Shown here piece by piece: positions 12,970-58,623 of a DNA stretch of 64,000 nt. The DNA comes from Paenibacillus sp. 19GGS1-52 (GTDB taxonomy: Bacteria; Bacillota; Bacilli; Paenibacillales; Paenibacillaceae). A program made the position numbers and the translations under genes. Position 1 is the first letter of the stretch; each line of letters starts with the position of its first letter. The notes below the pieces were generated by a model. It saw only the letters and a program-made list of their open reading frames with translations, did no database searches and was not told where the DNA came from. The stretch is taken from positions 6,200,001 through 6,264,000 of the forward strand of contig NZ_CP059724.1 in assembly GCF_022369515.1 (NCBI RefSeq). Direction: 5' to 3'.

Positions 12970-13020
12970 ACTGTTCACTCCATATTGTCAATTTCACCCG
13001 CTATCTTCCACGGATGATGT

Positions 13021-13065: not shown

Positions 13066-13092
13066 AAGGGCGGGGCCGGACTAACGGCCATT

Positions 13093-13218: not shown

Positions 13219-13247
13219 TATTTTCACCTCCCTTCAAGTGTGATCTG

Positions 13248-22753: not shown

Positions 22754-22782
22754 AAGAATCCTCCTTCTATGGGCTATTCCCA

Positions 22783-24057: not shown

Positions 24058-24087
24058 AGCGTTCTCCATTCCATCGCCCGTCATTAA

Positions 24088-24966: not shown

Positions 24967-24984
24967 GCATAAGTCCCCTCTCTC

Positions 24985-26085: not shown

Positions 26086-26105
26086 AGCTTTTCTCCTCTC
26101 CTTCC

Positions 26106-29181: not shown

Positions 29182-29239
29182 TTTAGAAACCTCCTTTTTC
29201 TATATACTGAAAATTAATTTTGCTCATTGAATACAAAAT

Positions 29240-29285: not shown

Positions 29286-29308
29286 ATTGTTCCAAACCTG
29301 TACCAAAT
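29286..29308. promoter_or_regulatory. Regulatory element copy A (CCAAACCTGTACCAAAT)
   Basis: The 23 bases match 51285-51307 at all but one position. CCAAA is repeated 11 bp apart. It lies 16 bp upstream of the GH20 -35 and would cover the -35 region of the divergent regulator gene, whose TATAAT is at 29322-29327. A smaller dyad, GACAA/TTGTC, is at 29339-29354. Confidence 0.7.
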
Positions 29309-29376
29309 ACCGCAGACATAATATAATATGACTATCTAGACAACATTTTTTGTCCACTGAAATTGGAGGGGTATGG

Positions 29377-30833: not shown

Positions 30834-30890
30834 TTGACTTTTAGCAATATTATCGTGATATAATGGAACCTGTACTAAACCTATACCATT
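30834..30890 (+). promoter_or_regulatory. Promoter and regulatory element copy B for the deacetylase/ABC operon
   Basis: TTGACT (30834-30839), 19-bp spacer, TATAAT (30859-30864), then CTAAACCTATACCATT at 30875-30890, ten bases after the -10. The same layout with the same distances occurs at 51343-51399. The element lies where a repressor would block initiation. Confidence 0.7.
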
Positions 30891-30962: not shown

Positions 30963-32693
30963 ATGAACATTAGCAAATTAGCAATTGTAAATGAGCGGTC
31001 CGTTCGCTTGCGAAGATGGCAGTATGGCGTTAATGCATTCGAAGGGTATACAGCGGAGATCCTGCAGCAGCTTCGAATTCCCTTCCATAGCTTTGAGTCG
31101 CTGGATGAAGCCTTGGCTTATCGACCAGACCTGCTAATCGCCGCCATTTGCGAAGAAAGTGCAGAGAACGGCAGGAAGTTGAAATCCTATGCAGAGAATG
31201 GAGGCACGGTTATTTCTTATGCGGGGTTAAACGGTCTGGCTAAGGAGCTGGGATATCATGAAGAACGCCCTCTCGGGGTAGGATATGCGTCACTTCCAGA
31301 GTTCAGCGATACCCCGTTGCGATCTCTGTCAGCCAAGCCTTGGAGCCCACACACCGGAGGTCAGCCCAACTTGAAACAGACGGGGCTTCTGCATAAGGAT
31401 AGCCCGGCGGGAGTTGAGTGTGGGCCTGCCCTGCTATCCATCCCCGTCGGCAAAGGATCGATTGAGCGCTGGTCAGTGAATATCCCCGCTTCAATCGTTG
31501 CCCTACAGCAGGGAACAGGACCTGTCTACGATGATGGTTCAGCAGCACCGGATGGAACGATTCCCATAAGAGAAGACATTCTAAAAGCGGATGACCGCTG
31601 TGCCATGGACTGGGAATATGACCGTCTGCAAACCCCGACGGGCATGAGCTACTATGCTTATCCCTATGCGGATTGGTGGCGACAAGTGCTGATCGGGCAT
31701 CTGATCTCCATCAGTGCCGCCAAAGGCACCTCCCTTCCGTTCCTTGATTATTGGCCTGATGGGATTCCAGCCGTATTGGCCATCTCCCATGATAGCGACT
31801 TGAATATAGACGTGCACGCCGAGACAACACTGAGATTACTCCGGCAAGAAGGCATCCGAACTACTTGGTGCATGCTGGAGCCCGGTTATTCACCGCATTA
31901 TTACGAAGAAGTGAAAGCCGATGGCCACGAGATTGCGCTTCATTACAATGCCTTGGAAATAGACGGCGGAATTTGGGGGGAGGAAGCCTTCTATAAGCAG
32001 AGTCAGTGGTTGAAGCGCTCCGCTCAGCTTCGAACAATTCCTTCCAATAAGAACCACTATACCTGCTTCGAGGGTTGGGGAGATTTATTCCACTGGTGCG
32101 AACGCAATGGGATTGAAGCGGATCAGACCAGGGGCCCGAGTAAAAAAGGAAACATTGGCCTGATTTTTGGTACCTGTCATCCCTACTTTCCGATCAGCGA
32201 TTTCACCGAAGGCAACCGTTTCTATGATGTACTGGAGATCGGCTTCCTCAGCCAAGACTTGAACCATCCAGATTTGTATGATTCCAGTGTTGTCGATCCG
32301 TTTCTGAATACCATCCAAGCAGCCGAAGGAGTTGCACACTTTCTCTTTCATCAAGCCCATATTCACAATTATGAATCGGTCAGACAGGCAGTACATGAAG
32401 TAGTGGATGGAGCCAAGAAACGCGGCTTCGCATTATGGACGATCAGCGAGATAAACAACTGGGAGCGAGCGCGTCGGAACTTGTGGATCGTCGGTATTGA
32501 TGATGCCGGATATCCCCTTCTAGAAGGAGCCGCATTACCGCAGCCAACGGCAGTTTATGTACCTGTGACCGTCAACGGTCCATCAGACGATGGAATCTAT
32601 GAGCGCAAATTCGGAGTTAAATGCAGAAAATATATAGTGGGCGAGAGGGGGATTGAAATTGCCGAAGAAAATGACCGCAGTCAGCCGGTTTAA
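30963..32693 (+). CDS. Cytoplasmic polysaccharide deacetylase-like protein with N-terminal ThuA-like part
   Basis: 576 aa. The first half resembles a class I glutamine-amidotransferase/ThuA-like fold (LLIAAICEESAENGRKLKSYAENGGTVIS is split by loops). The second half is NodB-like: IPAVLAISHDSDLNIDVHAETT opens the barrel and DGHEIALHYN supplies a His. The metal motif reads SHDSD rather than the usual FDDG, so chemistry may differ. No signal peptide. AAGGAGTG precedes the ATG. It overlaps the next permease gene by 35 bases. Function unproven; probably modifies an imported sugar. Confidence 0.7.
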   Translation: MNISKLAIVNERSVRLRRWQYGVNAFEGYTAEILQQLRIPFHSFESLDEALAYRPDLLIAAICEESAENGRKLKSYAENGGTVISYAGLNGLAKELGYHEERPLGVGYASLPEFSDTPLRSLSAKPWSPHTGGQPNLKQTGLLHKDSPAGVECGPALLSIPVGKGSIERWSVNIPASIVALQQGTGPVYDDGSAAPDGTIPIREDILKADDRCAMDWEYDRLQTPTGMSYYAYPYADWWRQVLIGHLISISAAKGTSLPFLDYWPDGIPAVLAISHDSDLNIDVHAETTLRLLRQEGIRTTWCMLEPGYSPHYYEEVKADGHEIALHYNALEIDGGIWGEEAFYKQSQWLKRSAQLRTIPSNKNHYTCFEGWGDLFHWCERNGIEADQTRGPSKKGNIGLIFGTCHPYFPISDFTEGNRFYDVLEIGFLSQDLNHPDLYDSSVVDPFLNTIQAAEGVAHFLFHQAHIHNYESVRQAVHEVVDGAKKRGFALWTISEINNWERARRNLWIVGIDDAGYPLLEGAALPQPTAVYVPVTVNGPSDDGIYERKFGVKCRKYIVGERGIEIAEENDRSQPV

Positions 32694-33609
32694 TTCAGAA
32701 CATTCCACCAAGTCGTTGCGAACGAAGCTTTGGAGTGAGCGGTATATTTTCCTGTTGCTCCTGCCCGGATTAATTTATTTTTTAACATTCAAAATCATCC
32801 CCATCTTCGGTAATGTGATTGCCTTCCAGGAGTTCAACCCCTTTAAGGGAATATGGGCAAGCGATTGGGTAGGATTCGCCAATTTCAGACGAATATTTGA
32901 AGACAGTGAAGTGCTTCGGGTGCTGCGCAATACATTATATATTTCCTTTATGCAGATCGTATTTGTCTTTCCGGCTCCGATTCTCCTGGCCATCCTGCTG
33001 AATGAGGTAGCTAATGAGAAAGTCAAAAAATTCATTCAATCTATCGTCTATTTACCCCACTTTTTTTCCTGGGTCGTTATTATCAGTATCTCCATGATCT
33101 TTCTGAAGCCCGAAGGCATTATCAATCAGGTGCTGCAAAGCTTCGGCTATGACTGGGTTTCGTTCATGACCAAACCACATCTATTCGTCCCGATTGTCAT
33201 TGTAGAGCTCATATGGAAGGAAACAGGCTGGTCAACAATTATTTTCTTGGCTGCACTTGCTTCAATTAATAATGAGCTTCTGGAGGCGGCCGTCATGGAT
33301 GGGGCTAACCGCTGGAAAAGAATCTGGAGCATCATCATCCCCTCGATCAGCGGAACCATTATCATTTTGATCATATTGCGATTGGGTACAGTACTTGATT
33401 CCGGCTTCGAGCAAATCTTCCTGATGCTTAACCCCTTCAATAAAGAGATTGGAAATGTACTTGATACCTTCGTCTACGAGAAAGGGATCAAGCAGAGCGA
33501 TTACAGCTTCAGTACTGCGGTAGGTCTGTTCAAGGGCGTTGTCGGACTCGTCTTAGTCTTGGGGGCTAATCGCATAGCCAAGAGATTCGGCCATGACGGA
33601 TTATTTTAA
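32659..33609 (+). CDS. Sugar ABC transporter permease (LplB/UgpA type)
   Basis: 316 aa with six membrane helices. The cytoplasmic EAA loop that docks the ATPase reads EAAVMDGANRWKRIWSIIIP. I choose TTG 32659: AGGGGG ends 7 bases upstream, whereas a TTG at 32653 is too close. An ATG at 32671 is possible. Starts inside the deacetylase-like gene, so it is co-translated. No ATPase gene is in the window; such systems often share MsmX. Confidence 0.9.
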   Translation: MPKKMTAVSRFNSEHSTKSLRTKLWSERYIFLLLLPGLIYFLTFKIIPIFGNVIAFQEFNPFKGIWASDWVGFANFRRIFEDSEVLRVLRNTLYISFMQIVFVFPAPILLAILLNEVANEKVKKFIQSIVYLPHFFSWVVIISISMIFLKPEGIINQVLQSFGYDWVSFMTKPHLFVPIVIVELIWKETGWSTIIFLAALASINNELLEAAVMDGANRWKRIWSIIIPSISGTIIILIILRLGTVLDSGFEQIFLMLNPFNKEIGNVLDTFVYEKGIKQSDYSFSTAVGLFKGVVGLVLVLGANRIAKRFGHDGLF

Positions 33610-33661
33610 AATATAAGAATTTATATGCTCCACGCAATAATTTATCCTTATATTTCTCGAA

Positions 33662-33699
33662 GAAACGGGTGCCGTCCATATAAATGACGAAGCCGTTTC
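33662..33699 (+). other. Inter-cistronic stem-loop between permease genes
   Basis: GAAACGG (33662-33668) pairs with CCGTTTC (33693-33699), with an inner CGTC/GACG stem. No T-run follows, so it is more likely an mRNA processing or stability element than a terminator. Confidence 0.45.
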
Positions 33700-33735
33700 A
33701 TCTTGACATCAACGCTGTGGAAGGGAGTGTCAACT

Positions 33736-34605
33736 ATGCATTATAAGACAAGGTCTGACAAATGGTTTGACGTGATTAATTATATTTTTCTGGGCTTAGT
33801 AGGACTATGTATGATCTTTCCCCTTTTGTATATTTTCTCAGTCTCCTTCTCTACTATGGAAGATTTTGTGCAGAGGGATATTATTTTATGGCCTTCCAAT
33901 TGGGACCTTGGCGCTTACAAGTATATCTTTGCTACGAAAACTTTTGGCCGAGCAATGCTCGTCAGCATTTGCCTTACCGCAGTGGTTACCTTCTTCAATC
34001 TGTGCATGACAAGCACGATGGCTTACGCCATCATACACCGCTTCACCGGTTCCAAACTGGTCCTCCGTATGGTTGTATTCACACTGTTATTCTCCCCTGG
34101 TCTGATCCCAAGCTATTTGATGGTACGCAACCTAGGACTAATCAATACGTACTGGGCGTTAATTCTTCCAGGAGCGATCAGCACCTTCAACCTCATTGTC
34201 ATCCGTCAATTTTTCCAGGGCCTGCCTAAGGAACTTTTCGAAGCAGCCAATATTGACGGGGCTAATGAATTGCAGATTTTCTGGCGAATCGCCTTGCCTT
34301 TATCCAAACCGGCATTAGCCGCCTTCACCTTATTCTATGCTGTGGATGCCTGGAACGCTTACTTCAATGTCATCTTGTATATGAATGACACGACAAAATG
34401 GACCATTCAGGTCGTGCTTCGGCAGTTGGTCATCGTCTCTCCACCAGACAACAATTTGTTATCCAGCCTGCTGCGGGATCCGCCTCCGTCGCAAACCATT
34501 CAAATGGCGGCTGTGTTGATAGCTACACTACCTATACTGGTGATTTATCCATTTCTACAAAAGCATTTTGCTAAAGGGGTGATGCTCGGATCAGTGAAAG
34601 GATAG
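33736..34605 (+). CDS. Sugar ABC transporter permease (YtcP/LplC type)
   Basis: 289 aa, six membrane helices. EAA loop EAANIDGANELQIFWRIALP. The extracytoplasmic VSFSTMEDFVQRDIILWPSNW is typical of the second permease of oligosaccharide importers. ATG 33736 follows GGAAGGGAG by 8 bases. Partner of the permease at 32659. Confidence 0.92.
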   Translation: MHYKTRSDKWFDVINYIFLGLVGLCMIFPLLYIFSVSFSTMEDFVQRDIILWPSNWDLGAYKYIFATKTFGRAMLVSICLTAVVTFFNLCMTSTMAYAIIHRFTGSKLVLRMVVFTLLFSPGLIPSYLMVRNLGLINTYWALILPGAISTFNLIVIRQFFQGLPKELFEAANIDGANELQIFWRIALPLSKPALAAFTLFYAVDAWNAYFNVILYMNDTTKWTIQVVLRQLVIVSPPDNNLLSSLLRDPPPSQTIQMAAVLIATLPILVIYPFLQKHFAKGVMLGSVKG

Positions 34606-34696
34606 GAAGTTGACGGGACGGCAGATGGATTGAACTGCAAGGCCATGCGTGGGGTTAAACACCCGATAGACACTTAAATACGGAGGGGATCTACTA

Positions 34697-36322
34697 ATGA
34701 AAAATCTACAAAAGATGATATTTCGTTCACTTACTCTGATTCTTGTATTGACTACGGCAGCATGTTCCTCAGGCAATAATTCGGAGAGTTCCCCTTCTAG
34801 CAATACTAACGCCACTGCCGTACCGGCAGGAGACTCCGCGAAATCTAACGAGAAGTACACCATCTCGATGATGGACATGACCTATGGTAAGATCCCGCCG
34901 AGTGATGGAGCCGCTGTGCAGCAAATCAATGAGAAGTTTAATATTGATTACAAACCGACAATTGTGCCTTATGACGGATATCTTGAGAAGATGTCTACTA
35001 CTATTGCCGGGGGTGACATGCCTGACATTCTCGGAATCGAGGAATATGTAGCTGCCGGTTCCCTGCAAAAGTGGGCGGATCAAGGCGCATTCCTGAAGCT
35101 GAACGATTATATCACCAAATATCCGACTCTTGCTTTAATCCCCCCTGAAATCTGGGCCGCAGTAACTAATAAGGATGGAACCATCTGGGGCATTCCCCGC
35201 TATTATCCTAACACTCCGACTCAGAGCTGGGCGATTCGCCAGGACTGGCTGGATAACCTCAAATTAAAGGTACCTACCAGCTATGAAGAACTGGCTGCCG
35301 TTGCCCTGGCCTTCACCAACGACGACCCGGATCAGAACGGTAAAGATGATACGTATGGGTTGGTCATGAATCCAGGAGGTCATCCGAACTATGGAATGGG
35401 TGCCTATTGGGATATAGATACCTGGTACCACAAGGATGCAGACGGCAACTTGATTCCAGGTTATATCGGCGAAGGCCGCAAGGAAAGTGTAGCTCTGTTT
35501 GCTGATCTGTATAAGCAAGGGGCGATTACCAAGGGTTTCGGCGCCAACGCAAGTATTGAGGTCGGACAGGCCGATTTCTATAACAACAAAGCCGGTATCT
35601 ACGTGGCCGGAATTCGTGGAATGGACGCCAATCTGGCCAACTCCTTGCTTTCCGTTGCCCCTACTGCCAAATTATCTGCAATCCCGCCATTTAAAGCGCC
35701 GGATGGTACACAGGGTTTCACCGCACAACGTGGATACTACCGGATTACCGTTCTGAATGGTAAGCTAGCCGGTGATGAAGGCAAGATCGACCGTATCCTT
35801 TCCTTGATAGACTTCGGGCGCACCTTTGTTCCGATAGATGAACAAAATCCTGATAATGAAATTTTTGATTTCCGCTCCGGTAAAGTCGGCACAGGCTATA
35901 CCAATGAGAATGGGGTGAACACCTTTACCGAGCCGGATCTAGGCTTGATGCCATCCACCTACCTTCCTGACTCCGTTATGTGGGCTCCAAGTGTGCTCGA
36001 TAACAAATATGCAGACACCCAAACCAACCCGCTTTTAAAGCCCATTGTCAAGGAACTCGAACAACAATACGTCGACTATGAACAGTATGTAGACCCAAGT
36101 TATTTCGGCTACTCCGCAACTCTTAACAGCGGTAAAGGTTCGGATGCGGTGAATAAAGTAATCGACACGCAAGTGAAAATGATGATGGGGGAAACACCGC
36201 TCTCAGACTGGGATAATATGGTCAATAAATTTCTGAGCAGTGGCGGCTCCGACATTATTAATGAAATGAACGAAAGCCTGAAAGGCAAAGAAATGATTGG
36301 CTATAAAAATATGAGCAAATAA
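34697..36322 (+). CDS. Sugar-binding lipoprotein (extracellular solute-binding protein)
   Basis: 541 aa. Lipobox LTTAAC with the lipid Cys at 23, then a Ser/Asn-rich tether. Binding fold marks include MSTTIAGGDMPDILGIEEYV, WGIPRYYPNTPTQSWAIRQDWLDNL split by loops, and TNDDPDQNGKDDTYGLVMN, a calcium-type loop common in this family. CGGAGGGG precedes the ATG. It delivers an oligosaccharide to the two permeases upstream. Confidence 0.93.
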   Translation: MKNLQKMIFRSLTLILVLTTAACSSGNNSESSPSSNTNATAVPAGDSAKSNEKYTISMMDMTYGKIPPSDGAAVQQINEKFNIDYKPTIVPYDGYLEKMSTTIAGGDMPDILGIEEYVAAGSLQKWADQGAFLKLNDYITKYPTLALIPPEIWAAVTNKDGTIWGIPRYYPNTPTQSWAIRQDWLDNLKLKVPTSYEELAAVALAFTNDDPDQNGKDDTYGLVMNPGGHPNYGMGAYWDIDTWYHKDADGNLIPGYIGEGRKESVALFADLYKQGAITKGFGANASIEVGQADFYNNKAGIYVAGIRGMDANLANSLLSVAPTAKLSAIPPFKAPDGTQGFTAQRGYYRITVLNGKLAGDEGKIDRILSLIDFGRTFVPIDEQNPDNEIFDFRSGKVGTGYTNENGVNTFTEPDLGLMPSTYLPDSVMWAPSVLDNKYADTQTNPLLKPIVKELEQQYVDYEQYVDPSYFGYSATLNSGKGSDAVNKVIDTQVKMMMGETPLSDWDNMVNKFLSSGGSDIINEMNESLKGKEMIGYKNMSK

Positions 36323-36365
36323 TCAAGGCGGAATCTTCTATTTCGCTGCCGCTTTAATGGACCGA

Positions 36366-36405
36366 CAACCCAAGGCCCTTTGTAGGCCTTGGGTTGTTCT
36401 TATTC
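36366..36405 (+). terminator. Terminator after the binding-lipoprotein gene
   Basis: AACCCAAGGCC and GGCCTTGGGTT form an 11-bp stem with a 7-base loop, followed by GTTCTTATTCC. The weak T-run suggests partial read-through into the propeller gene, which starts 23 bases later. Confidence 0.7.
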
Positions 36406-36427
36406 CTTTAAGACAAGGGGGCTTATC

Positions 36428-38224
36428 GTGAATCAACCCTTATACACACACGTAGGGCAGCCTTGCCACAATTTTAATATTCTGGCAACAACAGTTCTAA
36501 TAGACCCGCTGGACGGCCGGGAGAAGCTGGTGCTCTCCAATTACGCCATGGGCGAAATCGGGAATCTCATTCTTATCGATACGCTGACAGGTGAAAGCGA
36601 AAGCATCAGTCTCCCTGCCGGTCCAGGGGCCTGGGGCTTGGTAAACTGGCACAACGAGAAGCTGGTAGTTGGTACCTGTGTGGATCAGGCTTATTTGCAT
36701 GTTCTTGATTTGCATACGCGGAAATGGGCTCAGACCCTTGAGTCTCAGGGCGAGGCCTACTTCTGGACAATGACACTCGGCTCCGACGGGAAAGTCTACG
36801 GAGGTACCTACCCTGGATGTTCCTTGATGCAATACGATCCGCAGGACCATACTCTAGTTAACCTTGGCCACTTGACCGACAACGGAAATAATCAGTATAG
36901 CCGTCCCGTTTGGGGAGAAGCTCCCGGTTATATTCTCGTCAATTACGGATATGATACCTCCGGAATGAAAGCCTATGTGATCAGCGATGGACAATTTATC
37001 GATTTTGGCGCTCCGGGTGAGCAGATCAAATGGGTTACAAGCAGCCTTATTTGTACGGAGCTTGAAGACAAGCTTGCCTATTACGATGCAGGCAGTCTGC
37101 TTCTAGTACACGGAGCTGTCCCAGAACAGCAGATTCCCCGGCTGACCCTTACCTTATCCAATGGGCAAACTATTCCTATTAAACCATTAAGCGACAACCG
37201 CTTAGCTGGAGTACGAGGACAAGAATATTTCATCACTAAAGCTCCGGCATACTCTCATTCTCATGGTTATACCGAGCTTGAGGCGGTCGAATTAAAGCAT
37301 ATACCCGTGGATGCACCCTCTACAGCTATCTTCACGCTGCAATCCGATGGCCAGGGGCTGCTGTGGGGCTCCAGTGGATTTGGCCAGACGATCTTCAGTT
37401 TCAATCCCGCAACCGGCACCTTCTGGAATTCGCCATCTGTGTGCAATGCTGGGGGCGAGGTATATGGAATGAGGTTCATGAATAACCGATTGTTTCTAAG
37501 CGCATATGTAGGCGGTGACCATGTAATATATGATCCCTCCAAGCCTTGGGATCAACTGAATAACGTTAATCCCCGCACTCTGCAACCGGTAGCGCCGGAA
37601 CTTATTCGTCCTGAGGGAAGAAGTGTGCTCGGCCCCGACGGAGGATTCTGGACAGGCTGGTCTGCCCAATATGGTGTATATGGCGGCGGCCTGTCACGGG
37701 TTGACCCGGCTACACTTGAAGTCGAGACCTGGTATGATCCTGTACCAGGGCAGCAGGTTTCCGCTCTGGCGGCTGACGAGAAATATATCTATTTCACAAC
37801 CAATGGTGGGGCCAGCGGATTAGCCCCTCAGCAGGTGCACAGCCGTTTCGTGGTTTGGGTCCCAGGGAAAGGATCGGTCCATGAAGAGATATTCCGCGAG
37901 GATCAGGAAGCGGGCAACGCGATGGTTACTCTTGGTGGCAAGGTGGCTTGTGGCGCTGGAGAAGAGATCCTTATCTTCGATCGTCAACAACAGAAGTTCG
38001 TTATTACCCTATCGCTTAGAAAGAGATGCCAATGGCTCGTAGCCATTGATGATCGGACAGCAGGCGCTTTCTGTGACGAAGAATATTGGGAGATTGATGT
38101 GGAGACGGGCGCTCAGCACTTCGTATCCCGTCTTCCGGGCTCTGTAAGAGCTTCGTCCCTACACGACGGCCAACTTTATTTTGCTGTGGGCTCAGACTTG
38201 TATCTATTAAACAGATCATCCTAG
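36428..38224 (+). CDS. Cytoplasmic beta-propeller protein of unknown function
   Basis: 598 aa with repeated propeller-like blades, such as GSDGKVYGGTYPGCSLMQYDP, QSDGQGLLWGSSGFGQTIFSF and LSRVDPATLEVETWYDPVPG. No signal peptide or membrane segment. GTG 36428 follows AAGGGGG by 6 bases; reading from 36389 would start inside the terminator. Gene order suggests a sugar-related enzyme or binding protein, but I recognise no catalytic motif. Confidence 0.75.
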   Translation: MNQPLYTHVGQPCHNFNILATTVLIDPLDGREKLVLSNYAMGEIGNLILIDTLTGESESISLPAGPGAWGLVNWHNEKLVVGTCVDQAYLHVLDLHTRKWAQTLESQGEAYFWTMTLGSDGKVYGGTYPGCSLMQYDPQDHTLVNLGHLTDNGNNQYSRPVWGEAPGYILVNYGYDTSGMKAYVISDGQFIDFGAPGEQIKWVTSSLICTELEDKLAYYDAGSLLLVHGAVPEQQIPRLTLTLSNGQTIPIKPLSDNRLAGVRGQEYFITKAPAYSHSHGYTELEAVELKHIPVDAPSTAIFTLQSDGQGLLWGSSGFGQTIFSFNPATGTFWNSPSVCNAGGEVYGMRFMNNRLFLSAYVGGDHVIYDPSKPWDQLNNVNPRTLQPVAPELIRPEGRSVLGPDGGFWTGWSAQYGVYGGGLSRVDPATLEVETWYDPVPGQQVSALAADEKYIYFTTNGGASGLAPQQVHSRFVVWVPGKGSVHEEIFREDQEAGNAMVTLGGKVACGAGEEILIFDRQQQKFVITLSLRKRCQWLVAIDDRTAGAFCDEEYWEIDVETGAQHFVSRLPGSVRASSLHDGQLYFAVGSDLYLLNRSS

Positions 38225-38236
38225 GAGGGGTAAGAT

Positions 38237-39481
38237 ATGTTAGAAAATTTAGCGATCAACGGTGGACCACAAATCAAGACAACGCCATTTGGAACAGGTA
38301 ATCGGTTCGGAGATGCAGAGCTACAAGAGCTAAAAGAAGCACTGGAGCAAGGAACGCTGTTCTATCATTATGGTCATAAGGTCAAACAGTTTCTGCAGAA
38401 GTTTAACGAGATGTACGGCGTAAAATACAGCGTCGCGACTTCCTCGGGTACTGCGGCGATTCATGTTGCTCTAGGAGCGGCAGGAATTACTGCCGGAGAC
38501 GAGGTCATCACCAGCCCGATCACGGATCAGGGCACAGTCATCGGCATTCTGTACCAGAACGCGATTCCCGTATTCGCGGATGTTCTTCCGGATACGTATA
38601 ATTTGGACCCCATTTCGCTCGAGGCATGCATTACTGAACGCACCAAAGCGATTGTAGTCGTTCATCTGGCTGGTAATCCCTGTGATATGGATGCCATCAT
38701 GGCCATCGCAAACAAATATAACCTAAAGGTCATCGAAGATTGCGCACAAAGCTACCTTTGTTATTACAAGGGGAGGCTGACCGGAACCATTGGTGATTAC
38801 GGTTGCTTCAGCACGAATGATTTCAAGCATATCTCCACCGGAGATGGCGGAATGGTAACGGTAAATTCGGGACAGGAGGAAGACTATTCCATTACCCATG
38901 CCTTTGCCGACAAAAACTACCAGCGTTTCGATCACGCAGTGAGTCGGGATATTCATCATATCGCTCCCAACTATCGTATGACTGAGCTGCAAGGCGCTGT
39001 AGGCATCGCTCAGTTGGACAGGCTGGACTGGATTTGTACAACACGCAACACATACGGAACAATGCTGATAGACGGTCTTTCCGGACTTGCCGGCATTTAT
39101 CCGCCGAGAATCACTGAAGGCGGAGTAAGCTCCTTCTGGTTTTTTCTATTTCGTTTGGATACAGCTATGCTAAAAGGCTCCGTGGACGATTTTGTGGCAG
39201 CATTAAATGCGGAAGGCATTTCTTGTGTGCGAGGTTATATTCCCCAGCCCGTGTACCTCCAGCCTCTATTCCAAACAAAGGAAGCTTATCCGGGAACAAA
39301 TTATCCATTCAATCTCTCAGAGGTTTCCTACGAGGAGGGCATTTGCCCACAAGCCGAGAACGTTCTGCAATCTTCTGTCCGCATGGGGATCAGTGAATTT
39401 TATACCGTTTCCGATATCGAAGAGATGATTGCCGCCATTCGAAAAGTAGCGGCTCATTTTATAAAGGAAGGGTTCAACTAA
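38237..39481 (+). CDS. DegT/DnrJ/EryC1/StrS-family sugar aminotransferase
   Basis: 414 aa PLP enzyme. Marks: ATSSGTAAIHVALGAAGITAGDEV, VIEDCAQSYLCYYKGR, the PLP-lysine motif CFSTNDFKHISTGDGGM, and YRMTELQGAVGIAQLDRL. The family transfers an amino group to a keto-sugar or cyclitol. AGGAGGGG precedes the ATG. Follows the propeller gene by 12 bases. It converges on the DapA-like and epimerase genes, which would complete a small sugar-modifying set. Confidence 0.92.
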   Translation: MLENLAINGGPQIKTTPFGTGNRFGDAELQELKEALEQGTLFYHYGHKVKQFLQKFNEMYGVKYSVATSSGTAAIHVALGAAGITAGDEVITSPITDQGTVIGILYQNAIPVFADVLPDTYNLDPISLEACITERTKAIVVVHLAGNPCDMDAIMAIANKYNLKVIEDCAQSYLCYYKGRLTGTIGDYGCFSTNDFKHISTGDGGMVTVNSGQEEDYSITHAFADKNYQRFDHAVSRDIHHIAPNYRMTELQGAVGIAQLDRLDWICTTRNTYGTMLIDGLSGLAGIYPPRITEGGVSSFWFFLFRLDTAMLKGSVDDFVAALNAEGISCVRGYIPQPVYLQPLFQTKEAYPGTNYPFNLSEVSYEEGICPQAENVLQSSVRMGISEFYTVSDIEEMIAAIRKVAAHFIKEGFN

Positions 39482-43173: not shown

Positions 43174-43218
43174 AACAAAAACAACAGCCAAGGAAACGTT
43201 CCCTCGACTGTTGTTGTA
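43174..43218 (-). terminator. Terminator of the S-layer beta-helix gene
   Basis: AACAACAG and CTGTTGTT arms with an inner imperfect CCAAGG/CCTCG pairing around AACGTT. The minus-strand transcript then runs TTTTTGTTAC. It starts about 20 bases after the stop at 43239. Confidence 0.7.
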
Positions 43219-43238: not shown

Positions 43239-46200
43239 TCACTTGTTGTAAACAGTGTATATAAGCACTGCGATTTCAGCCCTTGTAGCATTACCCAGCG
43301 GGTTGATGCGGTTGCCGCTTCCCTTTATGATGCCCTCATTTACAAGATTTGAAACGCTGGTTCTAGCATACGAAGCAATCTTTGCAGAGTCGCTGTATCC
43401 TGCGAGTACAGCGGTATCTCCTGTTACAGACAACTTACCTGCTACATTAAGGGCGTTATTAACCATAACCATCATGTCCTGCCTCGTGATAGAGGCTTTC
43501 GGATTAAACGTGTTGTCCCCCACTCCTTCTATTACCCCTAATTTTCTAGCGATCCCTACGGCTTCATAGTAATAATCCTTTGTGCTTATGTCATTGAAGT
43601 TGGCATCTACATTCGCGCTGAGTCCAAGTCCGTTGACAAGGAGCTTTATAAAGTCAGCTCTGGTTATGTTTGCTCCCGGTGCATAAGTTGTATCAGAAGT
43701 ACCCCTAATAATCCCCTTTGATGCAAGTACGGCTATTTGATTCTCAGCCCATTCATACTTAGCTGTGTCTTTGAATGTCTTGTGTACAAATGCTACTGCA
43801 TACGTGCTAAAGTGTGTAGTCGTAAATGTAATTTTGCCTGAAGCAGGGTCATACCTTCCACTTGGAACAGCTGATGTATGACCCAAATCATCCACATACC
43901 ACACCACAATATGCTCTGCATCTTTCAATTCTTGAGCCGTAGGGGTATAGTCCATAGATACGGTCACCGGAGCTTCAGAATTGTTCCAAGCCACCGTTTT
44001 CCCATCGACCAGGACTGTAAGTTCAATCACAGGTCTGTCTCCTATTACCGCCTGCAGTTCTTTGCTCATCTTCGACTTATCCGCATGTTCTATGCTGAGT
44101 TCTATATAAGCAGCATTTCCTATGGAATTCTGAGCCAGCATATTTGAAGGGACCGTTAGGGTGCCATTAGGCGTTTCTATTTTTATCCTTTTATCTGCTC
44201 TGGCTGCTGTAAGTGCATTTGCAGGCAACTTCAGCACATATTTTGCAGCTCCGTCTACCTTGCCAACCTTAATAGTTATAGTTCTTACACCGCCGTTATC
44301 CTCATTAACCTTATTAAATAGTTCAGCAAGCTGATCTGACGTAAATTCAACATTTACTGCACCGTTGGCATCTAAGTTACCTTTTTCAGCAACGGCAATA
44401 TTGTTATTGTTGTTGTTGTTGTTGCCATTGCCGTCGTCATCTGTACCATTTGGCGTATATTCATACGCACCTAAATCAGGTGCACCCACTCTGCTGCGCC
44501 CCAGGATATCAACAATCGGCGCATTTTCAATTACCCCTTTGTTAATACTGTCGCTGCCCGAAGTTACATCCAGAATATTAGCAAATATCCTCTGAGCCTG
44601 TTCATAATCATCTGTTGCGCCAGCGATTGAACCTTTAAAGGTTACATTTCCCGCGAACATATTGGTGTATCTGTTATTAGTCTCCGCTGCATTTTCGGCT
44701 GCCATAAATTCATTGATCGGCATTACGCTAGAACCGAACTGGGCATTAGCAGGAAATGTTGTGTAATCATACATGTTATTCTTGAATGTGTTATCAACTA
44801 CCATATGGGTTGTTGACTGATCGGAATTTGTTCTTATGGTGTTGTACTGATAACCGATAATCACCGGCTGTACATTCCCATCAACAGAGTTATATTCCTG
44901 TGTACGGTCATTATAGAAGATGTTGTTCTGGAATAGGTTATTCCGTACGTTCCAATCCATATACAAATCGTTCGCCCAGCTGTTGTAGAACGTATTGTTA
45001 GTCACTGTGAAGCCTTGGATACCCACAAGGATCAAGCCGTATTTAGATTCAGAGAACACACTGTTCTTAATTACAACATCAGTAGATTGAATATCGTAAT
45101 TGTCACCAGCATAGAACTGCATGCCGCCGCCAGGTGAATCCGAAACTTTAAGGCCATCAAATACAAGGTTGGAACTGTGGCCTATATAAGCACCATGGTC
45201 TGCCTGGCTCTTTCTGGTCTGGCCGATATCCCATATATTGATGTCTTTGAACTGAGAATTTGTAGTACCGTTAATCAATAAGCCCTGTACACCAGAAGTG
45301 ATCTCTTCCGGAGTATCAATATCCCAGATGTTCAGATTCTTCAATACAAGGTTGTCACTGTCCAGAGTCCAGATCCCGGCACCTTTGAAACCTGTAATAT
45401 AGAGTCCTTCAATTGTAATGTAAGAGCTGTTGGTAATCTTCGTCATGAGCTCATCTGTAGCTGCTTCATTACGATCTTCATAATTATCCTTGCTTGTAAA
45501 GATAGGGCCGGGAAGCGAGCCATTTATTAAATCAAGAGGGTCGTTTGGATCCGTACTGGCCTTGATGATAATAGGTGCATCAGCAACTCCATGTTTGTCA
45601 TTAATATCATACCGTCCGGTGTAAATCCCTTTATGAACAATGATGGTATCACCCGAATCGGCTGCGTTAATGGCTTGTGCAAATGTCCGGAACGGATGCT
45701 CTGCCGTACCGTCACCACTCAACGATCCAGCATTGTCGCCTGCCAGGTGGATGGTCTTTAGGCTGTATGGTGAATAATAAGCACCTACGTCCTGACCCAA
45801 AGTCGTGTAAGGCGTTCCTGCATAATCCATTGAAGGAGCCGGAATATCCTTGGTAGAACCATCTGCAAAGGTGTCGGAAATTGATTTCACACCGTTTCTC
45901 GCTGCAGGACTTCCCTTCGCAAGATTGAAATCACCAGTTACCGCATCTTTGAACATAGGATCTCCAATATGTCCTCCTGTTTCATCCCCGTTTGCAACAG
46001 TCTCCGTAAAGGTTTGATCTGCATCATAGAAATGGGTGATCTTCTCGTCTGCAGCAGCATCATACAAATTGTATTCAGAGATGAATCCCGAATTCTTATC
46101 GATGGCATTGAATGCCCCCTGACCTCTGGAGCTTCTGGAGAAGATATTGTTGATAATATCAAGATTAGCAGCATGCCCATCAGCTTGTGTTACATCAATG

Positions 46201-49200
46201 CTGTATCCGCTATTATTATAGAAGGTATTGTTAAAGATGAAGAAACTGGATTCACCTGTTCCCAGAACTCCCTTTGCCGAATTGGTGATCAGGCAGCTGT
46301 TAAGGTTCAGGGTAATTTGGTTGTTAGCTTCGATGGCACTGGCACTTGCATGATCAACCTTGGTCTGGGAAATAGTTACCGGGCTCACCTTATTAGCGCC
46401 ATCCAGAACTATGCCTTTTTCCACATGATTCAGCTTAACCTTGTTAATGGTCAGATCAGAACTATCCAAGGCGCGGATACCTGTTGTTACATTTGTAATC
46501 GTTAGATTGTTCAAAATAGCTTTCGGAGCCGCATTCAAAGTGACTGCTGTGTTTCCCTCTCCGGAATTTACTGTAAAACCCTCAATAGTAACTCCAGTTG
46601 CGGTGTCCAATATAATGTTACCATTCAGAATAACGGCTCCATCTGCTGAGATTACATACTCATTTACTTCCTGTCCCGATCGGTTGGCCAGCGCTATGTT
46701 CTCATTATAAGTGCCTGCTTTGACAATAACCCGTTCCCCATTCCTCAAAACATTCAGCGCTGCACCTATCGTCTGAAACGGTGCCTCCGCTATTCCTGAG
46801 TTTGCATCATCGCCGGTCGAAGCATCCACATAATAGCTCACCTCGACGGCTGTCGCTGCATAGGCACCAATGTCTGAAGGAATCTTCCTGGCAATTCCGT
46901 TGATATCCTTAGCCGGAGTAACAGCATCCGTAATCCCTGCACCTACAGCTGGACTCAGCTTATATATTCTGTAATCCCTTGCCCTGACGTTGATGAATTG
47001 AGCAGGTGCTTTAACTGCATGCGCCTCTGTAATTGCATTCAAGTCTGTTTGGGCTATAACATCCGCATTGTATAGATTATAATCAAACTCGTTATTTGCG
47101 TAGCTTTCTATCATTGTAGAGAATATATTATTTTTCAAACTATTGCCGGTGGAATCGGTACTGAAGTCAACGTCTTTCACATTTCCATACAGCGTATTAT
47201 TGTAAATCTTGTTAGTAGTAGATTCAGTGGTTAAATAAACAGCCGTCTGTCTATCTGTAATGACGTTGTTTGTAATGGAACTATTCACACTATTGTTTAA
47301 AAGAATAGCATCCGCAGCTTTCGGGGCAAAAATATTATTTGTGACCACTGCCCCATCTGTTTGTTTTAAAGTTAAAGCTCCATGAATATGGCTGCCGTCA
47401 ATGGTTACTTTCTGACCGGACAACGAAATATTACTGGCAAAGGTAAGATTGTTCATAGAGACGGCTTTATCCACCGAGCCTATAACATTCACAGTCCCCT
47501 TTAATATCACTTCGCCATTATACGGCGTTACATAAACATCTCCGTCTCCGGCTGATGCTGCCATATCAATGGTCTCGTTAGCCTCATAGCTACCCGCCAT
47601 AATCTGGATATTTTTAGCTCCTGCATTCACTGCAGAAGTAATAGAAGGATATGGATGTAAAGGTGAGCCGTCTACCGTTCCGGTATTCCCCCCTACAAAA
47701 GCAAAGGTTTGATCAAAGGCATAGGCTCCGGCTTCGTTCTGTGTCCTTGCATGCCCGGTTATGTCGGCTGTTGGTGCCGTAATACCAGAAATAATGCTTG
47801 CATCCGCCGCACCGATTGCAGGGTTCGCAGCAAATATAATTCGGGCATCATTTAACACATTTGCAAAAGTGACCTCACCGGACTTCCCGTTAACTTCAAG
47901 CGCTCTGCCCTGATTGGCCCATGCCGTTGCGCTCTGCAGTTCAGCCAGTGTAAGGACGGGGCCTTCTCCTCCACCAGCGTAAGTAACTCTTTCCGAACCG
48001 GCAATAGAGTAGACGTTGTTATCGAATACAACATTCTGGGAAGCGTCAACAATGGATTTCCCACCCTCAAGCTGTGTACGGATAGGTTTGGTAAATATAT
48101 TATTTTTGAATACTAAATCCGTTGAAATGTTAATTGGAGCAGCTACAGGATCGTATGTGCCCTGCACCGGGTAAATATCATACCTCCCGCTTCCACCACC
48201 AGCATCGTACCTATCCGCAAAAGTATTATTGTAGAATAGAAGATCCGTGCTTCTGCCCCATAAGTTAATGCTGCGAGCTGCTCCGTAAATTACATTGTTG
48301 AATATCTTCCCATAGCTGCCCGCTTGTTCCCTGACCTCCTGGAAATACAGTCCCCAGCCATCATTGGAAACTATGACATTATTGGAAAACTCTAAATTAC
48401 CAAAGCCGATATTCACCAAATCTCTTGTTGCAATGGCCGTGCCAGTGTTCTGGAAACGGTTGTGGGTAACTGTAATGTTAGAGCTGGCCTGTCTGCCTGC
48501 CGTATGGTTATCTATCCGCACAGCTGTACCGCGGGACCCATTCTGTGAGGCATTCGGGGCAAAGGTCAGACCTTCAATGTGGATATACTGGCTATGTCCC
48601 AGATATATAATATAATCCGGATTCTCCGACGTTAAGACTACCTTTTCATTCTGATAGCTCTTGAAGCTAATCGGTTTGTCCGCAGTACCTGCATAGGTCT
48701 GCAAAACAATAACACCGTTATACGTGCCTTCCCTAAAGTACACAGTATCCCCTGCTTTCAATTTAGCAATAAGGCTACTAGATACTGTTCGCTTAGGGCT
48801 GTCTATGGTTCCCAGATTAGAATCGCTTCCATTCGGAGAAATATAATAGTCATTCATAATAAAAGCCTCTGTACTAAAGCTCCATGATACATCCGCCGGG
48901 AGATAATTCCCGTTCGTACTCATCAGATTTTTCTTTACAGTAACGTTATAAGTAGCATCGAAATTCAGCAGAGTCTCTGGAGTAAAGGTAATCGCAGTAC
49001 CTGTTCCTTCATCTAGTATGTTGAAACTGCCAGGTACAGGTACCGTATTCCCGTCAACTACTGTTGTAACAGCAATATTATTGGAGAGATTGCCGTTATC
49101 CGCATTTACTCTTTCCGATAAGGTGATCTCTATAGCAGAGTTTACTGTTATACCACTCCCCTGCGGGGTCTGATTTACGATATAGAAAGCCGAAGAATCT

Positions 49201-51179
49201 CCTCTGTATTCGTACGCACCGATATCGGTTGTACCCAAGCGGCCTCTGCCATCACGATCAAATACTGGGGCGTTCACATCCGTTCCCATATTGATAGCGG
49301 CACTTCCTAATTGCAGGTGATAGTCTGTAGCACTCACAAACAAAGGATTGCCAACTATACTATTGGCCTCATTCACAGGTCCCCCCGTCCCTAAGCCGGT
49401 ACTGGTACTGTCATATAAGTTATAGTCAACCGTATTATTAGATTCGACATCAAAGAAGTAAACGGCCTCACCCACTGTTACAATTGCAGCAGGACCTTCC
49501 GCCCTGAAGATATTGTTTGCGATGGTATCGCCAGTATCTGTTCCATTCAGGATAATATTTGCTCCATCACTAGAATGGGAAACAAATACATTGTTCATGA
49601 TAAGCGTATTGGTAAAGCTACCATCCTCATTCAGGATGCCTTTGTTATTGTCGAATATATTATTGTAAATTCTATTATCTGTGGAATCCTTTAATAGAAT
49701 ACCTTTTTGATCAGGCTGAGTGAAGGTATTATTATAGAAACTTGATCCTTTGGTATTGCCGGAGATTTCCATTCCGTAGGTTGCTGTTGTAACCGTCGAA
49801 CCGGAGATGTCGCTATTGATCAGACCGTCTGCCAGAAGTGCGGAACTTCCGCTGCTCGCCAGCGATAACCCTTCAATTGTCACATTGGCAATATTTATTA
49901 GAGAAATGGCCGGACTTGGGCCACCATCGATGCTGACTACACCTGTACCCAGCTTTTGAATCGTAATGGATTTGGTGTCTGGTGCACCGGTTCCTGTAAT
50001 CGAGAGATTCCCCGCATAACTGCCCGGTTTAACAAGTAGTGTTACGCCCGGCACAATCGCTGCATCCGCATCTTCTAGGTTGTTAAATGCAGTGGACTCA
50101 CTTAAACCGTCCCCACTACCCGCAGCATTTGCATCTAAGTAAAAAACCTTGCCATACGTATACGCGCCAATGTCGGGAGGGCCTAATCGCTCATTTCCGT
50201 CACGGTCATTTTGCGGCATACCTGTAGGGGTGCCCGCATCAGCACTGGGGCTTCCTTCTTTTAGATGGTAATCCGAGGCAGCTACAAAAGTATCTGCAGC
50301 TGTGGCCACAACATCTGTGCCGGAAGTTTTAAGGCTATCACTTGTAACGCTGTTATACCCAACAGTATTACCCGCACCCAAAGCAATAGCTGGATTTCCC
50401 AAGAAGATATTATTAGTTATGATGCTATTTTCATAGGTTCCACCGTAAAAATGTTCGCCAGCGCCTGCAAACACATTATTGCTGATAATACTATTTGTTG
50501 AGGTACTTGATTCAAAATGTAGAGTCCACCACTCTGTAAATATGTTGTTCGTGATCGTTGTATTATTTATTCCATAGCCGTAAAAGGAATTATCAGAACC
50601 TTCAACATAGTTACTATCAATCACTAAATTTTCATTGTCAGTGTTAAGGTAAAAAGCAGCATAAGTAGTACTGTTGGCGCCAAAGTAACTATTTTGAACT
50701 TTAACATTTTTCACTCCGCTTATTCCTGCTACATAGCTATCACCTGACTCAGGTGTACCGCCAAAGGCAAAATTAATATTGCTAATATTTATATATTCGC
50801 TGTTCGTGACACTAAGTGTGAAGTTCTTCCAGAACGGAGCATTTACATAAGCACTACCCGTTATATTGGTCCCAACTTCTCCGCGAATCGTAATCGGAGC
50901 ATTTGTGTTTCCCGTTAAACCGTTCAGAACAAGTGCTTCTGTATATTCACCCGCTTTAATGACTAGCGTATCACCGGACTGTAATTGTGAAACACCTTTT
51001 GCTAACGTTAGGTAGGGTGCATCAATGCCTCCAGTGTTGGTATCCACTCCGTTATTGGAGACATAATACGTAGTACCCCCGCCTGTGTCTTCTGCAAGCA
51101 CAATCCCCTGTGGCATGACTGTAAATATAGACATGATAACCATCAAAACCGCAATTAACCCGTTGAAAGTTTTCCTCAT
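43239..51179 (-). CDS. Giant S-layer-anchored parallel beta-helix protein
   Basis: 2646 aa, secreted. Signal peptide MRKTFNGLIAVLMVIMSIFT...VLAED. Six beta-helix units follow, each opening with a YYVSNNGVDTNTG-like DUF1565 word and most ending DIGAYEY: about 38-338, 346-658, 776-1150, 1160-1440, 1448-1801, 1808-2238. A Big_5 Ig-like domain sits at 663-766. Then come eight Asn residues (about 2252-2259), an unassigned domain (2265-2470) and three SLH repeats (2470-2646). ATG 51179 follows TAGGAGG by 8 bases. Beta-helix arrays of this type bind or cut polysaccharides; I see no proven catalytic residue. Promoter and regulatory element match those of GH20. Confidence 0.88.
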   Translation of the reverse strand: MRKTFNGLIAVLMVIMSIFTVMPQGIVLAEDTGGGTTYYVSNNGVDTNTGGIDAPYLTLAKGVSQLQSGDTLVIKAGEYTEALVLNGLTGNTNAPITIRGEVGTNITGSAYVNAPFWKNFTLSVTNSEYINISNINFAFGGTPESGDSYVAGISGVKNVKVQNSYFGANSTTYAAFYLNTDNENLVIDSNYVEGSDNSFYGYGINNTTITNNIFTEWWTLHFESSTSTNSIISNNVFAGAGEHFYGGTYENSIITNNIFLGNPAIALGAGNTVGYNSVTSDSLKTSGTDVVATAADTFVAASDYHLKEGSPSADAGTPTGMPQNDRDGNERLGPPDIGAYTYGKVFYLDANAAGSGDGLSESTAFNNLEDADAAIVPGVTLLVKPGSYAGNLSITGTGAPDTKSITIQKLGTGVVSIDGGPSPAISLINIANVTIEGLSLASSGSSALLADGLINSDISGSTVTTATYGMEISGNTKGSSFYNNTFTQPDQKGILLKDSTDNRIYNNIFDNNKGILNEDGSFTNTLIMNNVFVSHSSDGANIILNGTDTGDTIANNIFRAEGPAAIVTVGEAVYFFDVESNNTVDYNLYDSTSTGLGTGGPVNEANSIVGNPLFVSATDYHLQLGSAAINMGTDVNAPVFDRDGRGRLGTTDIGAYEYRGDSSAFYIVNQTPQGSGITVNSAIEITLSERVNADNGNLSNNIAVTTVVDGNTVPVPGSFNILDEGTGTAITFTPETLLNFDATYNVTVKKNLMSTNGNYLPADVSWSFSTEAFIMNDYYISPNGSDSNLGTIDSPKRTVSSSLIAKLKAGDTVYFREGTYNGVIVLQTYAGTADKPISFKSYQNEKVVLTSENPDYIIYLGHSQYIHIEGLTFAPNASQNGSRGTAVRIDNHTAGRQASSNITVTHNRFQNTGTAIATRDLVNIGFGNLEFSNNVIVSNDGWGLYFQEVREQAGSYGKIFNNVIYGAARSINLWGRSTDLLFYNNTFADRYDAGGGSGRYDIYPVQGTYDPVAAPINISTDLVFKNNIFTKPIRTQLEGGKSIVDASQNVVFDNNVYSIAGSERVTYAGGGEGPVLTLAELQSATAWANQGRALEVNGKSGEVTFANVLNDARIIFAANPAIGAADASIISGITAPTADITGHARTQNEAGAYAFDQTFAFVGGNTGTVDGSPLHPYPSITSAVNAGAKNIQIMAGSYEANETIDMAASAGDGDVYVTPYNGEVILKGTVNVIGSVDKAVSMNNLTFASNISLSGQKVTIDGSHIHGALTLKQTDGAVVTNNIFAPKAADAILLNNSVNSSITNNVITDRQTAVYLTTESTTNKIYNNTLYGNVKDVDFSTDSTGNSLKNNIFSTMIESYANNEFDYNLYNADVIAQTDLNAITEAHAVKAPAQFINVRARDYRIYKLSPAVGAGITDAVTPAKDINGIARKIPSDIGAYAATAVEVSYYVDASTGDDANSGIAEAPFQTIGAALNVLRNGERVIVKAGTYNENIALANRSGQEVNEYVISADGAVILNGNIILDTATGVTIEGFTVNSGEGNTAVTLNAAPKAILNNLTITNVTTGIRALDSSDLTINKVKLNHVEKGIVLDGANKVSPVTISQTKVDHASASAIEANNQITLNLNSCLITNSAKGVLGTGESSFFIFNNTFYNNSGYSIDVTQADGHAANLDIINNIFSRSSRGQGAFNAIDKNSGFISEYNLYDAAADEKITHFYDADQTFTETVANGDETGGHIGDPMFKDAVTGDFNLAKGSPAARNGVKSISDTFADGSTKDIPAPSMDYAGTPYTTLGQDVGAYYSPYSLKTIHLAGDNAGSLSGDGTAEHPFRTFAQAINAADSGDTIIVHKGIYTGRYDINDKHGVADAPIIIKASTDPNDPLDLINGSLPGPIFTSKDNYEDRNEAATDELMTKITNSSYITIEGLYITGFKGAGIWTLDSDNLVLKNLNIWDIDTPEEITSGVQGLLINGTTNSQFKDINIWDIGQTRKSQADHGAYIGHSSNLVFDGLKVSDSPGGGMQFYAGDNYDIQSTDVVIKNSVFSESKYGLILVGIQGFTVTNNTFYNSWANDLYMDWNVRNNLFQNNIFYNDRTQEYNSVDGNVQPVIIGYQYNTIRTNSDQSTTHMVVDNTFKNNMYDYTTFPANAQFGSSVMPINEFMAAENAAETNNRYTNMFAGNVTFKGSIAGATDDYEQAQRIFANILDVTSGSDSINKGVIENAPIVDILGRSRVGAPDLGAYEYTPNGTDDDGNGNNNNNNNNIAVAEKGNLDANGAVNVEFTSDQLAELFNKVNEDNGGVRTITIKVGKVDGAAKYVLKLPANALTAARADKRIKIETPNGTLTVPSNMLAQNSIGNAAYIELSIEHADKSKMSKELQAVIGDRPVIELTVLVDGKTVAWNNSEAPVTVSMDYTPTAQELKDAEHIVVWYVDDLGHTSAVPSGRYDPASGKITFTTTHFSTYAVAFVHKTFKDTAKYEWAENQIAVLASKGIIRGTSDTTYAPGANITRADFIKLLVNGLGLSANVDANFNDISTKDYYYEAVGIARKLGVIEGVGDNTFNPKASITRQDMMVMVNNALNVAGKLSVTGDTAVLAGYSDSAKIASYARTSVSNLVNEGIIKGSGNRINPLGNATRAEIAVLIYTVYNK
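44399..44426. repeat. Trinucleotide repeat coding for poly-Asn
   Basis: TTGTTATTGTTG-type repeats give eight Asn codons between the last beta-helix unit and the next domain. Changes in copy number would keep the frame and alter linker length. Confidence 0.7.
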
Positions 51180-51248
51180 CTTAGAACCTCCTACTGTTAT
51201 TTTATTTTCTGCATGCTGAAAACTATTTCTCGACTTTGAATTGAAAGT

Positions 51249-51307
51249 AATATAGCACCCCGAACTAACCAGTGTCAACGAGGAATTGTTCCAAACCTAT
51301 ACCAAAT
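51249..51307 (-). promoter_or_regulatory. Promoter and regulatory element copy C for the beta-helix gene
   Basis: Minus strand TTGACA (51278-51273), 18-bp spacer ending GGGTGC, TATATT (51254-51249). CCAAACCTATACCAAAT lies at 51291-51307. The element is 10 bp nearer the -35 than in the GH20 promoter, about one helical turn, so it faces the same side of the helix. Confidence 0.75.
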
Positions 51308-51342
51308 TTGAGTCCGATTGTCATGAAACTTAACATTTATTA

Positions 51343-51399
51343 TTGACATATCTTAATATTATCATAATATATTGGTATTGGTACTAAACCTATTCTATT
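51343..51399 (+). promoter_or_regulatory. Orphan promoter and regulatory element copy D
   Basis: TTGACA (51343-51348), 19-bp spacer, TATATT (51368-51373), then CTAAACCTATTCTATT at 51384-51399. Layout and distances equal those of copy B. No convincing gene follows; transcription would meet the terminator at 51541, giving a transcript of about 190 bases. The rest of the 51180-51605 gap holds copy C and that terminator. Confidence 0.6.
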
Positions 51400-51540
51400 T
51401 ATTTAATTAATTTTTTATTTTATGTAACTATATCTGACATTATGATTCGTGAGAGTTTCATTTGAAAGGGAGTGGGGAACAAGTGAGCGATAACTGGAGG
51501 TTGGCTAAAAGAAGCGCTCGAATACGGTTGATGGGCACAC

Positions 51541-51582
51541 AAAAAAAGTCAGTCTCCTATAACTCGAAGACTGACTTTTTTC
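51541..51582. terminator. Bidirectional terminator downstream of the GH92 gene
   Basis: AAAAAAGTCAGTCT and AGACTGACTTTTTT form a 14-bp stem with a 12-base loop and T-runs both ways. It lies 24 bases after the GH92 stop and also ends any transcript from the orphan promoter. Confidence 0.85.
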
Positions 51583-56927: not shown

Positions 56928-56953
56928 TACGATTGGGTCCTCCTTCTTATGTT

Positions 56954-58597: not shown

Positions 58598-58623
58598 CGT
58601 ATTCAGTCCTCTCTTTCTTTCCG

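Follow-up and report, generated by a model that had tools for sequence, protein, structure and literature searches.

The window analysed here (the whole 64,000-nucleotide stretch, bases 6,200,001-6,264,000 of the complete 6.83-Mb genome of the soil-type Paenibacillus sp. 19GGS1-52) contains the gene for BH, a very large surface protein whose coordinates (43239-51179), strand (minus) and length (2646 aa) had been given correctly in an earlier, sequence-only reading of this DNA. The gene was assigned from its open reading frame, Pfam and NCBIfam profiles and orthologues; it starts with an ATG at 51179, preceded by an AGGAGG-type ribosome-binding site, and stops at 43239. Its parts, in window positions, are listed below with the evidence for each.

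43239..51179, minus strand: BH, giant SLH-anchored beta-helix array, 2646 aa
50064..51086, minus strand: U1, beta-helix, residues 32-372 (structural matches, the best being GH136 lacto-N-biosidases)
49212..50063, minus strand: U2, beta-helix, residues 373-656 (model and structural matches)
48855..49211, minus strand: Big_5 Ig-like domain, residues 657-775 (Pfam E 5e-11, match at residues 662-770)
47712..48854, minus strand: U3, residues 776-1156 (conservation; low-confidence model)
46839..47711, minus strand: U4, beta-helix, residues 1157-1447 (model and conservation)
45768..46838, minus strand: U5, beta-helix, residues 1448-1804 (fold nearest PL9 Pel9A; conservation)
44460..45767, minus strand: U6, proposed catalytic beta-helix, residues 1805-2240 (structural matches and alignments)
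44955..45230, minus strand: conserved-residue core of U6 (residues unchanged in both alignments used; strand order taken from the model)
43239..43787, minus strand: three SLH domains, cell-wall anchor (Pfam; structure match)

Six right-handed beta-helix units make up BH, together with a single Big_5 domain and a triplet of SLH domains, and the earlier claim of beta-helix units with a Big_5 domain and an SLH anchor was confirmed by Pfam and NCBIfam and by six copies of a D[IVL]GAY-type end motif (residues 340, 656, 1153, 1440, 1801 and 2239). Pfam recognised Beta_helix in eight stretches, NosD in six, DUF1565 in four, Big_5, and SLH three times; the scores passed the cut-offs for Beta_helix (140.3 against 25.9), for DUF1565 (25.2 against 20.3) and, in NCBIfam, for the choice-of-anchor Q profile NF041518 (82.2 bits against 25). 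The three SLH domains (Pfam E 4.7e-31) match Sap SLH structures, and the genome encodes two PS_pyruv_trans (CsaB-type) proteins, in keeping with attachment to a pyruvylated wall polymer; secretion of BH and its retention in the wall by these domains are supported at this level.

Elsewhere in the window, two overlapping same-strand ORFs at 41772-43087, GGDEF-like then HTH-like, look frameshift-split from one regulator. Two large secreted purple-acid-phosphatase proteins are encoded at 2273-5194 and 58624-62073, one SLH-anchored and one with PA14 and F5/8C domains. At 7746-15173, NTP_transf_5, ABC transporter, Transglut_core3, HPr-kinase-like and Asn_synthase genes stand in a row, presumably a paeninodin-like lasso-peptide cluster.

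The control region of BH was compared with that of a GH20/ABC-importer locus in the same window, and the relevant features of both are as follows.

51249..51278, minus strand: BH promoter, TTGACA-18-TATATT, TG-extended, identical in layout to the GH20 promoter
51288..51303, minus strand: proximal GntR-type predicted operator, GGTATAGGTTTGGAAC, 9 nt upstream of the -35
51381..51396, minus strand: distal predicted operator, AGAATAGGTTTAGTAC(CAATACC), two mismatches to the pattern
51205..51222, minus strand: IclR-type palindrome, TTTTCAGCATGCAGAAAA, downstream of the BH -10
43180..43215, minus strand: BH terminator, hairpin and T-run, -22.4 kcal/mol, z -5.4
51541..51582, minus strand: hairpin terminator separating the GH92 gene from the BH promoter, -23 kcal/mol, z -6.0
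27301..29181, minus strand: GH20 (GH20C-type) beta-N-acetylhexosaminidase
29196..29213, minus strand: IclR-type palindrome before GH20
29289..29304, minus strand: predicted operator in the GH20/GntR intergenic region, GGTACAGGTTTGGAAC
29350..30783, plus strand: GntR DNA-binding domain fused to SBP_bac_1 (GntR-SBP), proposed regulator
30872..30887, minus strand: predicted operator just 3' of the ABC-operon -10
30963..39481, plus strand: ABC-importer operon (deacetylase-like protein, two permeases, SBP, 611-aa protein, DegT aminotransferase)
21926..26858, minus strand: associated catabolic genes (MBL-fold, MFS, SMP-30/gluconolactonase, D-serine-dehydratase-like PLP enzyme, SDR), kept near GH20 in relatives

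BH is probably monocistronic, because strong hairpin terminators lie on both sides of it. The adjacent GH92/SLH/phosphatase genes (51606-62073) were weighed as possible partners of BH and left out on account of the strong terminator in between, and also because orthologous BH genes occur without these neighbours. The sequence-only reading had held that the BH promoter carries the element of the GH20 operon, and this proved correct: about 115 bp, spanning the upstream operator, the -35, the -10 and the downstream palindrome, align between the two promoters with a local score of 70; the highest score among 1000 dinucleotide shuffles was 30, and the other upstream regions of the window gave 21 or less. 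Furthermore, the 6.83-Mb genome holds exactly three perfect matches to GGTAYAGGTTTRGNAC, all within the window and all on the minus strand (29304, 30887 and 51303), and these precede GH20, the ABC-importer operon and BH. Regulon members were sought in the genome by pattern matching only. The signal is carried by the perfect sites only, because the genome count of two-mismatch sites fell below that of a reversed-pattern control and is thus at or below background. The palindrome TTTTCAGYATRYAGAAAA has only two perfect genomic matches, before GH20 and before BH, and its next-best sites belong to a second GH20/IclR locus at 2.95 Mb. On sequence, there is strong support for a GntR-type operator and an IclR-type palindrome shared between BH and the GH20 gene, and equally for the recurrence of the GntR-type operator at the ABC-importer operon. 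The BH promoter (51180-51450) has a mosaic appearance, its proximal half resembling the GH20 promoter and its distal half the inverted ABC-operon promoter.

The GntR-SBP gene is divergent from GH20, with a predicted operator between the two, and the position of this fusion and its co-occurrence with BH suggest that it binds the shared operator. Its SBP part is of the extracellular type and there is no signal peptide, so that the protein is apparently an intracellular sugar sensor. The palindrome would be recognised by an IclR protein, whose gene adjoins GH20 in relatives and lies at 2.95 Mb in the query genome. Literature searches on GntR-SBP fusions and on choice-of-anchor Q returned nothing relevant.

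Orthologues of BH with 69-80% identity were found in P. sinensis (of the query's GTDB genus), Cohnella spp. and P. contaminans, and another in G090, a second genome of the query's genus. Among the 295 family genomes, BH is present in only six, the query included; the other five (G090, G247, G290, G305 and G333) carry it at 65% identity or more, and exactly these five carry GntR-SBP at 70% identity or more. Four genomes with BH are counted as the Cohnella group: C. fermenti, C. rhizosphaerae, C. faecalis and G247, the last because it shares their GTDB genus. The predicted operator precedes BH in 4/4 of these, directly 3' of the -10 hexamer, where a repressor would be expected to block transcription. 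Its conservation is not a by-product of linkage, because the operator still precedes BH in G247 and G290, where BH lies 0.95 Mb and 0.93 Mb, respectively, from the regulator. Although the Cohnella operator sits in a different promoter context, it keeps its core and its palindromic arm (ATAGGT-N5-ACCTAT). The BH genes of P. sinensis and G090 are preceded by a degenerate GntR site, though by a perfect palindrome. A paralogous six-unit array, BH2, which lies in a second GntR-SBP/ABC importer/deacetylase-like cluster in G247 and C. rhizosphaerae, also has the predicted operator. C. rhizosphaerae and C. faecalis have BH broken into two or three frames, with the breaks at different places, through either assembly error or real decay.

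P. contaminans serves, at the sequence level, as a natural negative control for the pairing of regulator and operator: its BH is 69% identical and sits outside any recognised glycan locus, no GntR-SBP above 35% identity was found in the genome, and no operator was found in its BH promoter. Matches to the GntR-SBP protein in P. contaminans number 34, some of them partial and covering one domain only. A general rule that a GntR-SBP locus implies a beta-helix array failed, as 18 more distant GntR-SBP loci lack one. Taken together, footprinting, regulator co-occurrence and the negative control strongly support co-regulation of BH with the GH20/ABC-importer locus, and membership of BH in a glycan regulon is well supported by these comparisons. 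What the sequence-only reading had called sugar-type control is read from sequence, and its basis has grown from one shared element to a regulon traced by footprinting.

Shallow alignments were used for the AlphaFold models of the units, whose confidence is moderate or low: the mean pLDDT is 58 for U1-U3 and 70 for U4-U6. Separate right-handed beta-helices were modelled for U1, U2, U4, U5 and U6; U3 was poorly modelled. The modelled units match carbohydrate-active beta-helices at Z 20-30. U1 is nearest to GH136 lacto-N-biosidases (7v6m and 6kqs, Z 21-22, identity 15-20%, a fold-level likeness), the top match giving Z 22.4 and an rmsd of 3.0 A over 271 residues at 20% identity, little higher than unrelated entries at Z 18-20; the reference catalytic Asp pair of GH136 is D568/D575 in ErLnb136, and the sequence match of U1 to GH136 is limited to the N-cap. 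U2 matches the beta-helix glycoside hydrolase BT_1002 (Z 23.3) and the alginate lyase PsAly (Z 23.2), whose type we take to be PL31. The best structural neighbour of U5 is PL9 Pel9A (1ru4; Z 29.5, rmsd 2.8 A, 308 residues), again a fold-level likeness at low identity (15-20%); PL9 pectate lyases are marked by a catalytic Lys and a cluster of Ca2+-binding Asp residues. U6 aligns with BT_1002 (5mqp) at Z 29.1 over 282 residues with an rmsd of 2.2 A and 15% identity, BT_1002 being larger (599 residues) and compared by fold only, and with PsAly (PDB 6kfn; PMC6796002) at Z 28.9 over 256/298 residues at 2.0 A, a common beta-helix fold at 20% identity. PsAly has a Tyr184/Lys221 catalytic pair and an E/E/D cation site (PMC6796002), and inspection of U6 by eye showed none of its spacings (H154-x-R156, E181-xx-Y184, E216-xx-D219-x-K221 and D250-x-K252). 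Such Z values are common to many beta-helices, including structures of the PfbA adhesin, which match U6 at Z 26; in these models they give the fold and not the function.

Conservation sets the units apart. Across six orthologues the invariant fraction is 0.69 in U3, 0.66 in U6, 0.57 in U1, 0.48 in U2, 0.46 in U4, 0.37 in U5 and 0.32 in the SLH region; U3 and U6 are thus the most conserved units and U5 the least, and the SLH and pre-SLH parts are the least conserved of the protein. When BH was compared with its BH2 paralogue, dense charged and aromatic core-rung residues were kept in U6 only, and the conserved residues of the other units lay for the most part in the cap or at the anchor-Q end; between U5 and its paralogue b5, Y1654 is the only core charged or aromatic residue kept. 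The sequences therefore point to active-site-like conservation in U6 only, and perhaps U3, with U4 and U5 appearing to drift like spacers. The earlier picture of six like units accordingly holds as to their number, but the units are not equal.

The conserved core of U6 comprises R1989, D1994, H1995, Y1998, Q2021, Y2023, K2046, D2071 and Y2073, with D2075 additionally kept in the array proteins, and three lineages at 30-36% identity share these core residues. All nine are kept by a stand-alone secreted U6 homologue of 592 aa from another genus, whose gene adjoins ABC permeases, a BcrAD/BadF-family gene and a Hepar_II_III (heparinase-like) gene. In the strand register of the model, HGAYI, MQF, YGLIL and NDLYM fall on consecutive rungs, so that the conserved residues could line one cleft, and their conservation suggests an active site. 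No named CAZy family fits U6 clearly. PL6/chondroitinase B was rejected for the BH units (PF14592, 20.2 bits against a cut-off of 24, with only the N-terminal cap scoring), as was a Pel9A profile match of BH2 and the stand-alone U6 protein, which covered only the N-cap. A broader U6 profile also gave mostly N-cap matches, with the full domain at only nine places, and no U6 relatives were found in phages.

The target is likely a HexNAc-containing glycan, possibly containing uronate or galactose. Conserved neighbours in the locus are GH20, the ABC importer, the deacetylase-like protein, DegT, SDR, the gluconolactonase-type protein and the D-serine-dehydratase-like PLP enzyme; the loci of relatives additionally have a DHDPS-family aldolase and a cyclase, and in G247 only 43 bp separate BH from a GH35 gene downstream. 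Marine chitin oxidation by the Ong pathway, which handles oxidised GlcNAc, has a GH20 and a PLP deaminase at its core (PMC9537276). The query locus likewise pairs GH20 with a fold-type III PLP enzyme resembling D-amino-acid deaminases and, compared by family only, adds an SDR and a lactonase, and in relatives the DHDPS-family aldolase; unlike the Ong pathway, no LPMO or RidA was recognised in it. The query's second GH20/IclR/ABC/GntR-SBP locus (contig C1, 2,940,000-3,000,000 of the query assembly, G000) bears two SLH giants, the first of 2403 aa with a Hepar_II_III domain and the second of 2747 aa with a GH53 domain.

Paenibacillus sp. JDR-2 has systems that combine SLH-anchored multimodular depolymerases with ABC importers (PMC4765114). 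As there, a giant surface protein with an SLH anchor appears to be under common control with an ABC importer and a glycosidase inside the cell; at the sequence level, BH shares its regulatory element with the latter two. Unlike JDR-2, BH has no recognised GH or PL catalytic module and its surface arm consists of six beta-helices, a GntR-SBP fusion is proposed as regulator, and the substrate likely contains HexNAc. The BH system would work like the JDR-2 type, of which it is a candidate member, since no catalytic family was recognised in it. BH is also like ChiW of Paenibacillus FPU-7 in being a surface SLH protein that joins a beta-helix with Ig-like domains; however, ChiW combines GH18 catalytic barrels with one beta-helix, whereas beta-helices are the only modules of BH other than Big_5 and SLH.

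On balance, with slightly better than even confidence, we favour BH as the cell-surface arm of a regulon for the use of an N-acetylhexosamine-containing polysaccharide, with units that grip and cut the glycan. BH would be transcribed alone from a promoter with the GntR-type operator and the IclR-type palindrome; the GntR-SBP fusion would sense the imported oligosaccharide and release, or from an upstream site activate, the BH, GH20 and ABC promoters. The beta-helix units would present, grip and cut the glycan, the membrane-proximal U6 being the main catalytic unit with an active site of stacked D/H/Y/K/Q/R residues on consecutive rungs, U1, U2, U4 and U5 serving mainly for reach or as binding spacers and U3 as a possible second site, and the products would be imported and then trimmed by GH20. 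The glycan-platform claim of the sequence-only reading fits the co-regulation and the SLH anchor; a cutting role centred on U6 is plausible from the fold and the conserved U6 residues. Weighing against the favoured reading are the degenerate GntR site in P. sinensis and G090, the position of BH in P. contaminans away from any recognised glycan locus, the 18 GntR-SBP loci that lack an array, the lack of an obvious PsAly-type motif in U6 and the limited confidence of the models.

The main rival explanation, for which we see a smaller though substantial chance, is a co-regulated scaffold or adhesin that only binds, holding a glycan or surface in the manner of CBM54 or PfbA while other secreted enzymes cut. 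A fold match is insufficient for catalysis, because CBM54, the lyase-like beta-helix of ChiW, binds several polysaccharides and does not cut them (PMC5132251); the likeness of U6 to PfbA, the poor conservation of U4 and U5 and the failure to find any named catalytic signature in BH point the same way. However, the dense D/H/K/Y/Q/R core cluster that the U6 paralogues and the stand-alone homologue keep looks more like an active site than a binding spacer. The shared promoter could instead reflect a recent duplication or recombination without regulatory meaning, of which its mosaic structure would be a product; this is improbable, since the Cohnella operator keeps its core and arm in another promoter context even where BH is unlinked, and no operator was found where the regulator is absent. 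A constitutive structural S-layer protein, part of the wall lattice, would account for the SLH domains and the great size of BH, but this reading is disfavoured and very improbable, given the rarity of BH in the family, a promoter in common with a catabolic gene and conservation that is highest in U3 and U6 and lowest around the anchor; moreover, SLH proteins of this group are often enzymes (PMC4765114).

If BH does cut glycan, U6 may found a new beta-helix lyase/hydrolase family and BH may be a GntR-SBP-controlled all-beta-helix, multi-site surface depolymerase, a proposal that we put forward only tentatively; such a layout is not described in the literature searched on Gram-positive glycan use. 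In this light an anonymous 'choice-of-anchor Q / DUF1565' giant becomes a testable member of a defined glycan regulon, and the 436 residues of U6, with their nine core residues, become the focus for a possible new carbohydrate-active family. The GntR-SBP operator may likewise offer a transcriptional handle to the substrates of other giant SLH beta-helix proteins to which no function is assigned.
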